Shown here: piece by piece, positions 41,379 to 62,625 of the stretch | How the letters are laid out: the number at the start of each line of letters is the position of its first letter | How positions within the stretch are numbered: the first letter of the stretch is position 1 | Notes under the pieces: model-generated | Seen by the model: the letters and a program-made list of their open reading frames with translations, nothing else | What the model was told of the DNA's origin: nothing | The model's database searches: none | Translations under genes and position numbers: made by a program | From: Chloroflexota bacterium | GTDB taxonomy: Bacteria > Chloroflexota > UBA11872 > VXOZ01 | Direction: 5' to 3' | Assembly: GCA_012270555.1 (NCBI GenBank) | Contig: JAAXIC010000008.1 | Span: 2,426 to 66,425 of the forward strand | DNA length: 64,000 bases

Positions 41379-42911
41379 TTGAGCATCAAGTCTGAAGATA
41401 TAACCTCGGCACTACGTCAGCAGATTGAAGCGTTTGATCGCCCCAGCGAGGCGGTGGACGTGGGCACCGTAGTTGAAGCGGGAGACGGCATCGCGCGCAT
41501 CTTCGGCCTCTCCGGCGTGATGAGCAGCGAAATCCTGGAGTTCTCCAACGGTGTGTATGGCTTGGCCCTTAACCTCGAGGAAGACACCGTCGGCGCGGTC
41601 ATCATGGGTCCCTACGAGGACATCAAGGAAGGGGACGAGGTCCAAGGCACCGGACGCGTTATGTCGGTCCCCATTGGGCCTGAACTTACCGGCCGCGTGG
41701 TCAATTCGCTCGGACAGCCCGTAGACGGTAAAGGGCCGATCAACACGTCGGAAACGAGTGTTATCGAGAAAGTGGCCCCGGGCGTCGTCACGCGTGAGAG
41801 CGTGAATGTTCCCCTGCAAACCGGCATCAAGGCCATCGACTCCATGATCCCCATCGGTCGCGGCCAGCGCGAGCTTATCATTGGCGACCGCCAGACCGGC
41901 AAGACGGCGATTGCCCTCGACACAATCATCAACCAGAAGGGCAAAGGCGTCATCTGCATTTATGTCGCCATCGGCCAAAAGGAATCCGACATCGCCAACG
42001 TGATGACGATTCTCGACCGCCACGGCGCGATGGACCACACCATCATTGTTGCCGCTGGCGCTTCCGATCCGGCGGCATTGCTCTATCTCGCGCCATTTGC
42101 CGGTTGCACGATGGGTGAGTACTTCCGGGATAAGGGCCAAGATGCGCTGGTCATCTACGACGACCTGAGCAAGCATGCGTGGGCATACCGCCAGGTCTCC
42201 CTGTTGCTGCGCCGCCCACCTGGCCGTGAAGCCTATCCTGGCGACGTCTTTTACTTGCACTCGCGCCTACTCGAACGGGCTTCCTGTCTCAACGACAACT
42301 TTGGCGGCGGCACGCTGACGGCGCTTCCCATCATCGAGACCCAGGCCGGTGACGTGTCCGCATACATCCCCACCAACGTGATTTCGATTACGGACGGACA
42401 GATATACCTTGAGCCGGACCTCTTCTATGCAGGTCAAAGACCGGCGGTGAACGCCGGTATCTCGGTGTCTCGGGTCGGCGGCGACGCGCAAATCAGGGCG
42501 ATGAAGCAAGTTGCCGGTCGCTTGAGACTGGACATGGCGCAGTACCGCGAACTTGCCGCCTTTGCGCAGATCGGCTCGGACCTGGACCGCGTCACACGGC
42601 AGCAGCTTGAGCGCGGTCAACGCGCGATGGAGATTCTCAAGCAGCCCCAGTACGTCCCGCTCCCTGTCGAAAACCAGGTCATCAGTATCTTTGCTTTGAA
42701 TGGCGGTGAGTTGGACGACGTAGCCGTGGGCGATATTGGCCGCTTTGAGACCGAACTGCTGCAGTATATCTCCTCCAGCCACCCGGAACTGGCAAATGAG
42801 ATAAGGGAATCCCAGGAACTGACCGACGAGGGGGAAGAGAAGCTAGGGGCGGCAATACAGCAATTCAAGCAGGATGTCTTCCAGCCTTCCGTGCAAACAG
42901 GAGCAGCGTAA
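41379..42911 (+). CDS. atpA: ATP synthase F1 subunit alpha
   Basis: Non-catalytic nucleotide-binding subunit, 510 residues from a TTG start. TTG-AGC-ATC-AAG gives the usual (M)[18 protein letters not shown], and AAAGGAG lies about ten bases upstream; the GTG nine codons earlier would put the ribosome binding site inside the gene. The P-loop is [13 protein letters not shown], and the arginine-finger region [20 protein letters not shown] is present. Its stop codon touches the atpG start. Confidence 0.97.
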
Positions 42912-43836: not shown

Positions 43837-45270
<1,434 letters not shown>

Positions 45271-45278
45271 CCATCACT

Positions 45279-45390
45279 GTTTCCAGGTGGATTTGGCAGA
45301 TAGCTAGGCCCCGAGTTTGTTTCCTCTCCCTCAGGGAGAGGACTAGGGTGAGGGTGAAACATCCGAGCAGAGTCAAGCTAAAAGGATACT
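45279..45390. repeat. MITE-like ~111 bp repeat, copy A, between atpD and atpC
   Basis: Begins GTTTCCAGGTGGATTTGG, has the central CCTCTCCC-TCA-GGGAGAGG palindrome, the conserved AGGGTGAGGGTGAAACATC and ends AGTCAAGCTAAAAGGATACT directly before the atpC ATG. Copy B at 61226-61336 aligns over the whole length (roughly three quarters identical by eye). The ends GTTTCC and GGATAC are near-inverted repeats. Its AAAAGG end acts as the atpC ribosome binding site. Confidence 0.75.
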
Positions 45391-45825
45391 ATGGCATCGC
45401 TCCGCCTTGAAATCATAACTGCCGAACGCATCGTCCTTACCGCAGAGGCGGTTGGTTCCGTGCGCGTGCCGGCGTCGGAAGGTATAGTAGGCATACTGCC
45501 GCGCCACGCGCCGCTGATGACGACGTTGGCACCGGGCGAACTCATCATGCGCAAGGGTGAGGAAGAGGAGTCTTTTTTTGTTACCGGAGGCTTCTTGGAG
45601 GTCCGGGACAATCACGTAGCAGTCTTGGCCGATGCTTCTGAACGGGCTGAGGAGATCGATGTTGACCGTGCGGAAGAAGCGCGTCGCCGCGCTGAAGAAG
45701 CACTGAAAGAAAAACGGGAAGGTGCGGAACTTGCAGCCGCAGAGGCAGCGATGCGACGTGCATTGATACGGTTGCGTTTGGCGCAGCGAGCGCGAGGCAG
45801 GCGAGGCGCTTCCCGGGCGCAGTAG
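45391..45825 (+). CDS. atpC: ATP synthase F1 subunit epsilon
   Basis: Small F1 rotor subunit that can inhibit ATP hydrolysis. The 144-residue product has the N-terminal beta-sandwich (ASLRLEIITAERIVLTAEAV, EGIVGILPRHAPLMTTLAPG, FFVTGGFLEVRDNHVAVLAD) and a C-terminal helical region with ERAEEIDVDRAEEARRRAEE. The only visible ribosome binding site, AAAAGG, lies in the repeat element that fills the atpD-atpC gap. Confidence 0.95.
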   Translation: MASLRLEIITAERIVLTAEAVGSVRVPASEGIVGILPRHAPLMTTLAPGELIMRKGEEEESFFVTGGFLEVRDNHVAVLADASERAEEIDVDRAEEARRRAEEALKEKREGAELAAAEAAMRRALIRLRLAQRARGRRGASRAQ

Positions 45826-61110: not shown

Positions 61111-61225
61111 GCGCTCCCAATCAGGGATGCGCTGCCCCTTGCCACCAGCCTATCCAGGCAGCGGCGTGGTCATTTACCTAGACAAATGCGATCCTAGCAG
61201 CTAGTTCCCCATGCCGCCTAGTACC

Positions 61226-61336
61226 GTTTCCAGATAGATTTGGCGATATCTCGATTCCGAGTTTGTCCCCTCGCCCTGAGGGAGAGGGCTAGGGTGAGGG
61301 TGAAACATCACAGCAGAATTAAGTTGAAAGGGAACT
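61226..61336. repeat. MITE-like ~111 bp repeat, copy B
   Basis: Aligns with copy A at 45279-45390 from GTTTCCAG through the palindrome CCCTCGCCC-TGA-GGGAGAGGG and GGTGAGGGTGAAACATC to GAAAGGGAACT. The last two bases fall within the stop codon of the threonine aldolase gene on the opposite strand, so the element ends exactly at that gene's 3' end. Confidence 0.75.
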
Positions 61337-62390
61337 AGACACCCGCCGGAACGCTCGTCATTGCTGCCACGGATTCCTGGGCGACTGAGATTGTCGTCTC
61401 AATGTCTTCGGACGTGATCTGATGGTACGTCACGAGGCGAATGCGGTCGGCTGAAACCGCGCTGCACTTCACGGATCGCGCCGCCAACTCATCCACAAGC
61501 TGCTGTGCCTCCCCCAAAGATGGGTCAACATCGATGTAGATCATGTTGGTCTCCACAGGATCGGCGGAAACGCCAGGAATCTCGCCAAGTCCTTCGCCGA
61601 GGCGGCGGGCGTTGGCATGATCTTGGGGAAGCTTCTGTGGGATCGTCTCCAGCGCCACGATGCCTGCCGCGGCCAACACACCCGATTGCCGCAAGCCGCC
61701 GCCCAACATCCGTCGGAACCGCCGGGCAGTCTCGATGAATTCCTTGGTGCCACAGACGATTGACCCAACCGGCGCACTTAACGCCTTGGATAGGCAAAAT
61801 GTCACCGAGTCTACGTATTGCACTACTTCAGATACCGGCACCTGCAACGCGGCCGCGGCATTGAAAACCCGCGCGCCGTCCATGTGGACATTTATGTCTA
61901 GCTCATCTGCCAGTTCACGAATACCGGCCAGGGTTTCCAGCGGATATACGGCCCCACCACCCCGGTTGTTGGTGTTTTCCAAGCAGATCAACCGCGTTGG
62001 CGAAAACGCGTCATAGGACCGGCGCAGTACGCTGCGAATGCTCTCGGCCGTCAAGATCCCCCGATCCGAGGGCGCGATACGCGGCGATGCGCCCGCCACG
62101 CAGGAGAAGTCTCCCGCCTCAGTTGTGACGATATGGGCCTCGTCTGCCACGATGAACTCATCGCCGTTGCGGCACTGGGTCACGAGACAGACAAGATTGC
62201 CCTGCGTGCCGCTGGTAACAAAGAGCGCCGCCTCTTTGCCCGTGATCTCAGCAGCCATCGCTTCTAGACGATTGATGGACGGGTCTTCCCGATAGCAGTC
62301 ATCGCCGACTTCCGCATTGGCCATGGCCTCGCGCATTTCCGCCGTCGGCATGCTCACGGTGTCGCTGCGCAGGTCGATTGTTCGAGACAT
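61335..62390 (-). CDS. ltaE: low-specificity L-threonine aldolase
   Basis: PLP enzyme that splits L-threonine to glycine and acetaldehyde, 351 residues. Start at 62390 gives RTIDLRSDTVSMPTAEMREA with GEVGDDCYREDPSINRLEAM-like sequence (AEVGDDCYREDPS); GAGGGAG is upstream. ALFVTSGTQGNLVCLVTQCR, VHMDGARVFNAAAALQVPV and the PLP lysine in VTFCLSKALSAPVGSIVCGT are all as expected. The stop codon abuts repeat copy B. Confidence 0.93.
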   Translation of the reverse strand: MSRTIDLRSDTVSMPTAEMREAMANAEVGDDCYREDPSINRLEAMAAEITGKEAALFVTSGTQGNLVCLVTQCRNGDEFIVADEAHIVTTEAGDFSCVAGASPRIAPSDRGILTAESIRSVLRRSYDAFSPTRLICLENTNNRGGGAVYPLETLAGIRELADELDINVHMDGARVFNAAAALQVPVSEVVQYVDSVTFCLSKALSAPVGSIVCGTKEFIETARRFRRMLGGGLRQSGVLAAAGIVALETIPQKLPQDHANARRLGEGLGEIPGVSADPVETNMIYIDVDPSLGEAQQLVDELAARSVKCSAVSADRIRLVTYHQITSEDIETTISVAQESVAAMTSVPAGV

Positions 62391-62625
62391 ACTCTCACTC
62401 CCTCGCTTTAGTAGATTCTCTAAGCAGTTCGGAAAAATGTCCGCACCCAATACTTCCCTTTCGCAAACGCACGCTCAGCGTAAGGCAAGGGATTTCTCAA
62501 GTCCGCGTGCGGATCAATTCGTGCCTCTTTCAAGTATAGAATCCTTGACCCCACAACGCACACTTTCGGTCTTTGAACAAGGGTATGAGCACGTGCCGTT
62601 TGTCTTCTTGCGAGATCCGGCTGTG
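62391..62625. other. intergenic region upstream of the threonine aldolase gene
   Basis: About 235 bases between two minus-strand genes. No hairpin with T-run and no repeat seen; probably the aldolase promoter. Confidence 0.35.

Follow-up and report, generated by a model that had tools for sequence, protein, structure and literature searches.

Bacterial MITEs bring promoters, terminators and RNase sites with them. Among the described families, RUP, Correia/NEMIS and ERIC are elements of about 110 bp with terminal inverted repeats and no open reading frame, as set out in the accessible parts of two reviews (PMC2229807, PMC10969869). A different kind of repeat, the TM or TMECO intrastrand triplex motif, is intergenic and occurs in many copies per genome (Holder et al. 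2015, PMC4666352); that study reports neither an association with mobile elements nor, for E. coli, a strand bias (PMC4666352). Here, we describe a spacer between the ATP synthase genes atpD and atpC of a Chloroflexota bacterium that shares these properties with both.

The window analyzed, a stretch of 64,000 nucleotides, belongs to a draft genome of 3.18 Mb in 56 contigs (G000; the window is G000:C7:2426-66425). The F1 beta subunit gene atpD is located at 43849–45270 on the forward strand, with its TAG stop at 45268–45270 (NCBIfam TIGR01039, E 1.5e-246), and the F1 epsilon subunit gene atpC follows on the same strand at 45391–45825 (NCBIfam TIGR01216, E 2.7e-34, above the cut-off). The two are genuine F1 subunit genes. 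The nearest named relatives, by AtpC, are Chloroflexota MAGs, with the isolate RHO3_bin_22 at 96%.

Borders of the element and its family

An element between atpD and atpC had been predicted at 45279–45390. The element is real, and its borders are corrected here to 45275–45388 (114 bp, forward strand, 3′ end co-oriented with the operon), as the common ends of the family place the predicted borders slightly inside at the left and slightly outside at the right. The left terminal repeat is found at 45275–45283 (CACTGTTTC, family consensus TACCGTTTC) and the right one at 45380–45388 (AAAAGGATA, consensus GAAAGGGTA), the latter being the probable Shine–Dalgarno sequence of atpC. These repeats are flanked by the target duplication, which reads CCAT on the left (45271–45274; compare the empty sites TAG-CCAT-GG in G003 and TAG-TCAT-GG in G002) and CTAT on the right (45389–45392), where it ends in the first two letters (A and T) of the atpC start codon. 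The pair GTTTCC...GGATAC, previously proposed as near-inverted ends, does not delimit the element, since the true ends and the duplication were found outside it. At this copy the duplication is imperfect and the terminal repeats have decayed, with an inverted match in 5 of 13 positions. No open reading frame of its own lies within 45275–45388.

A search of G000 with the spacer yielded 40 scored matches, the majority to the central palindrome alone; other copies reach 83% identity (E 5e-27), and about ten have both ends recognizable. The full-length copy predicted at 61226–61336 was recovered with 81% identical positions in a 115-bp alignment (E = 2.8e-24). It occupies 61222–61334 (113 bp, forward strand) between CTAG at 61218–61221 and CTAG at 61335–61338, and inside the right duplication lies the TAG stop (61335–61337, reverse strand) of a PLP-dependent aldolase gene at 61335–62450. 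The family ends are CTAG-TACCGTTTC...GAAAGGGTA-CTAG, with inverted repeats matched in 12 of 13 positions, CTAG included; the common left end of the full copies can also be written CTAG-TACCGTTTCC, opposite the right end GAAAGGGTA-CTAG. Six copies in G000 bear CTAG on each side, and relatives have empty CTAG sites.

Regular copies measure about 113–119 bp without the duplication, and longer forms 164–185 bp. The family thus has the characters of a MITE: it is short (below about 500 bp) and non-coding, has terminal inverted repeats, a target duplication and dispersed copies, and is absent from empty orthologous sites. The original prediction of an inserted, MITE-like element is therefore borne out by copies, ends, duplications and empty sites; further copies do exist in the genome, and their collection gave the ends and a CTAG-type target duplication.

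In the longer forms (L104/L217, L020/L218 and L422), about 165 bp in G000 and longer in G002, either a further CCCTCTC-like arm or an additional block, GCAGACCCTTGCATTGCGCAGCC, is present. Deletion between the arms may have given rise to the regular 113-bp form.

Empty and filled sites in related genomes

A comparison of the atpD–atpC junction among relatives, as suggested with the original prediction, found it empty in three of the four other genomes of the genus that have the junction (G001, G002 and G003). The fourth, the close sister G004, shares the insertion but has lost 24 nt from within it. The empty sites, all of matching length, read TAG-TC-ATGG in G002, TAG-CC-ATGG in G003 and, near the atpD end, TAA-CC-ATGG in G001. 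Read as a 4-bp duplication, the filled sites are CCAT-element-CTAT in G000 and CGAT-element-CTAT in G004, at the place where the empty genomes have CCAT or TCAT. The atpC ATG accounts for the T at the fourth base, and the first two letters of the start codon, A and T, thus come from the right copy of the duplication. As G000 and G004 are filled at the same place, the insertion is older than the split of the two species and has been kept since. Among the more distant atp junctions examined in the class, not one has the full spacer, and the element is thus not a sequence held in common by distantly related ATP operons, a finding that would have told against an insertion.

The joined flanks of eleven copies were also searched against the relatives. 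The copy on contig C42 is empty in G003 (GGGAGGT-CTAG-CCATGG). The junction of gatC and gatA, named from a reading of the flanking translations, is empty as ACTAG in G001 and G002 and as ATTAG in G003, and the trpD–trpC junction is empty in G003 (GCCTAGGAC) and filled in G000, G001 and G002. These empty sites identify the target as CTAG.

The CTAG target mostly coincides with stop codons

In 9 of the 11 independent insertions, the CTAG target holds the TAG stop of a neighboring gene (for gatC, as read in the empty relatives). As a control, 26 of 124 non-coding CTAGs outside elements (about 21%; 6 of 24 in the window and 20 of 100 at other loci) hold a TAG stop, and stop codons are accordingly enriched among the targets (binomial p about 3e-5). 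Gene calls for these counts were made with a simple purpose-made codon-usage finder, checked on the atp operon, and the stop assignments of the element copies were read individually. The window contains 79 CTAGs where 236 are expected, a roughly threefold deficit. The target duplication restores the stop on the gene side. This coincidence of a CTAG target with the neighboring TAG stop is new here; the literature searched gave no matching report on stop-codon or CTAG insertion or on MITE-borne ribosome binding sites.

The TM motif

The predicted central palindrome is present, accompanied by a third, purine tract, and is better described as the widespread intrastrand triplex motif (PMC4666352), which mostly occurs without the element. 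The motif spans 45322–45354 on the forward strand. Tract 1 at 45322–45330 (TCCTCTCCC) is followed by the loop TCA, tract 2 at 45334–45342 (GGGAGAGGA) by CTA, and the third strand at 45346–45354 (GGGTGAGGG) comes after the palindrome. Judged by its letters, this succession of pyrimidine tract, purine tract and purine third strand has the class II order. The same three tracts stand in the order CCCTCTCCC, GGGAGAGGG, GGGTGAGGG in the described motif (PMC4666352), and the arms and third strand of E. coli TM motif no. 17 equal the family consensus found here (PMC4666352). Relative to the sister copy in G004, the stem of the atp copy has a paired C-G to T-A change.

Exact copies of the core number 75 in G000, against 0 for the reversed control, and vary strongly within the genus (75, 22, 37, 1, 10 and 33 in G000 to G005). 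In a sample of the phylum the core is patchy, being present in 71 of 400 genomes and 38 of 224 genera. Lone TM motifs between tandem genes of G000 are co-oriented with them in a ratio of 32:8 (p 2e-4), or 17:2 near the downstream start codon. The ratio is 12:1 in G002, partly through orthologous copies, and the bias is absent in the distant G007 (7:7).

The atpD–atpC gap of a genus of another family (g3; G007, G013, G025, G028 and G029) also holds a TM motif, intact or decayed, in reversed orientation. One example has its core at contig positions 41497–41529 (L258, G007:C4 40000-43000; also L317-L320). The atpC gene of this genus has its own GAGGAGG where the start was read (G007, G013 and G028), and the motif there is an event separate from the insertion in the window.

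At three loci of the family (L021, L077 and L102), a further hairpin insert, AGCCTGCCCCGTAC...GATACGGGG, is nested in the TM motif directly before the third strand. Inverted pairs of TM motifs, about 110–150 bp apart and with a shared spacer (e.g. TTGACCGTTTTGG...TATTGACTGTACATG), occur at L135, L197, L184, L195 and L179 of G000, and resemble another family of repeats, one with TM motifs as its arms.

Near the element, Rfam gave no match at the gathering score. A match to whalefall-1 was rejected as sub-threshold (20 bits, gathering score 37); at threshold, none of 18 other sources, most of them with TM motifs, was matched. An intrinsic terminator, defined as a GC-rich hairpin followed by a T run, does not occur in 45200–45460, and no promoter-like or terminator-like site was found near the atp junction.

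A probable ribosome binding site for atpC

Pairing was predicted with the general bacterial anti-Shine–Dalgarno tail, because the 16S rRNA is absent from the G000 assembly. Upstream of atpC, the predicted pairing amounts to −2.4, −3.6 and −3.4 kcal/mol in the empty genomes G002, G003 and G001, and to −6.0 kcal/mol in G000 (AAAAGGAU) and −8.5 kcal/mol in G004 (UGAAAGGGU), the filled ones, at ordinary spacing. Random 17-mers attain −6.0 kcal/mol in 12% of cases and −8.5 kcal/mol in 3%. Since 39% of the called genes in the window have a Shine–Dalgarno sequence at least as strong as −6.0, that of atpC is moderate and ordinary, not exceptional.

An in-frame TAA four codons upstream of the ATG excludes an earlier start of atpC. 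Of the sequences preceding the ATG, AAAAGG, which had been put forward as the only ribosome binding site of atpC, pairs best with the anti-Shine–Dalgarno tail (−6.0 kcal/mol), and the absence of an earlier start agrees with that claim. This site is the terminal sequence of the element, which in the family is the Shine–Dalgarno-like GAAAGG, and predicted pairing is stronger in the filled than in the empty genomes. On sequence grounds, the right end of the element has thus probably become the ribosome binding site of atpC, and we infer that atpC, and with it an essential operon, has come to depend on a repeat.

Similar arrangements are seen at other copies. The element ends just upstream of the start codon of the C42 gene (GAAAGGGTACTAGCCATGG) and of an enolase-superfamily-like gene (GAAAGGGTACTCAATCATGG in G001, GAAAGGATAACTAAAGCATGG in G000), and GAAAGG lies upstream of a further gene (L037). 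At the enolase-superfamily-like gene the insertion is old and orthologous in G000 (L033) and G001 (L334); GAAAGG has been retained there and the remaining element has decayed. Between gatC and gatA the element is reversed, and its other end (UGGAAACGGUGGUA) gives a predicted −9.3, against −3.1 in the empty allele. At C42, the Shine–Dalgarno sequence predicted for the filled allele (−8.5) is weaker than that of the empty allele in G003 (−11.0); the element is thus not always an improvement, and at trpC the predicted gain is nil.

Candidate mobilizers

No autonomous partner, that is, no IS with matching ends (13-bp end, up to one mismatch), was found in the incomplete assemblies of G000, G001, G002, G004 and G005, and we therefore limit our claim to a MITE-like element. 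At two mismatches the scan fell below its reversed control, so only matches with zero or one mismatch were used. The PF01609 transposases examined have no matching ends, and G000 is without a PF01609 match. A RAYT/REP origin was rejected, as neither of the two Y1_Tnp matches in the genome has a TM motif close by (the nearest is about 3 kb away). A 6-bp NCTAGN duplication of the IS481 type was likewise rejected, as the sixth base differs between the sides in most copies with intact CTAG.

IS5-family elements target C(T/A)A(G/A), and the present element shares with them a 4-bp CTAG-type target. G001 contains a multi-copy IS5-like IS (PF01609; L429, L433, L435 and L437) with 4-bp CTAG/CTAA duplications. 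In one of the four aligned copies, the IS starts immediately behind the TAG stop of the upstream gene. However, the terminal repeats of this IS (GAAAACTCTGAACAA) are unlike those of the element, which leaves it a candidate mobilizer at most.

Discussion

A dispersed element with defined ends and a CTAG-type duplication fills the atpD–atpC junction in two genomes of this genus, where the duplication overlaps the atpC start codon, and the same junction is empty in three others. The explanation that we favor for the whole, and consider likely, is a MITE-like insertion with a CTAG-type duplication and a TM motif, whose end now acts as the Shine–Dalgarno sequence of atpC. The spacer would be a short, non-autonomous transposable element of the MITE type with the TM triplex motif inside. 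Its insertion, in an ancestor shared by the G000 species and the sister G004, would have hit the final base of the atpD–atpC gap together with the A and T of the atpC ATG, duplicating CCAT (or CTAT). As the target was duplicated, both the atpD stop and the atpC ATG survive, as the comparison shows. The move of atpC to about 120 bases from the atpD stop should have abolished termination–reinitiation coupling, and the right end, AAAAGGA or GAAAGGG, a few bases before the ATG, would now serve as Shine–Dalgarno sequence, to judge from predicted pairing and spacing.

CTAG in G000 is often a TAG stop codon after C, so that a preference for it would bring the family to gene ends, where it rebuilds the stop. 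If another gene begins immediately downstream, the end of the element could provide a new ribosome binding site, and the insertion would be tolerated. The inverted ends of the family read GAAAGGGTACTAG and, in the opposite direction, GGAAACGGTACTAG. A more tentative idea, which we put forward with considerable reserve, is that the family is shaped for operon junctions: a stop-rebuilding CTAG target and outward-facing Shine–Dalgarno ends would keep the next gene translated, making insertions nearly harmless; some could then turn into permanent ribosome binding sites for essential genes (atpC, gatA).

Intergenic MITE insertions are commonly neutral, and the element could be a passenger with an incidental Shine–Dalgarno-like end, atpC being translated by weak reinitiation or an unrelated signal. 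The empty relatives cope with weak predicted Shine–Dalgarno sequences, and trpC tolerates an insertion without predicted gain. We nevertheless regard this as unlikely, given that the nearest upstream stop after the insertion is about 120 bases away and the sole good match is the element end, which is retained in the deleted G004 copy, just as GAAAGG is in the decayed L033/L334 pair. Quite improbable, in our judgement, is a functional TM hairpin or triplex that processes, stabilizes or attenuates the atp mRNA and sets the epsilon to beta ratio, the ribosome binding site being secondary. The independent motifs in the g3 junction, the paired change in the atp stem and the co-orientation of lone motifs in tandem gene pairs of this genus point towards it. 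Yet the g3 copies are oppositely oriented, next to an atpC with its own GAGGAGG, a single paired change is weak evidence, and the search for a terminator-like or promoter-like site was negative. The tuning of the epsilon to beta ratio by an mRNA hairpin, a speculation of the original prediction, is not supported.

The mode of mobility allows another reading, in which an IS630/Tc1-mariner-type enzyme duplicates TA within CTAG in place of an IS5-type enzyme duplicating all 4 bp. At CTAG targets the two duplications look alike, giving identical sequence, and TA duplication is usual for bacterial MITEs, according to the accessible part of one review (PMC2229807). At the atp junction, however, the fourth base of the left flank is T in G000 as well as in G004, as an ATG target predicts, and TA duplication would require mutation of the first base of the element; moreover, the IS5-like IS of the genus makes 4-bp duplications, although its ends differ. 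We consider the TA reading possible but doubtful.

On the favored reading, the operon for ATP synthase uses a MITE end as its resident Shine–Dalgarno sequence for atpC, next to a duplication that overlaps the start codon. Such a case would illustrate how tight junctions with translational coupling can be rewired with neither gene lost. The preference for CTAG stop codons would offer a simple reason for spread in compact genomes. In addition, some copies of the widespread, unexplained TM triplex motif are now placed within a datable mobile element.

Such a ribosome-binding or stop-codon role is not mentioned in the accessible parts of the MITE reviews (PMC2229807, PMC10969869). According to these, RUP, Correia/NEMIS and ERIC share with the element a target duplication, an intergenic position and a hairpin-forming transcript, whereas the present element targets a stop-coincident CTAG, has a Shine–Dalgarno-like end probably used by the downstream gene and is not A+T-rich. 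Compared with the TM motifs of E. coli (PMC4666352), some copies here form part of an element whose ends are defined and for which empty sites exist, and the lone copies are mostly co-oriented with tandem genes (32:8).
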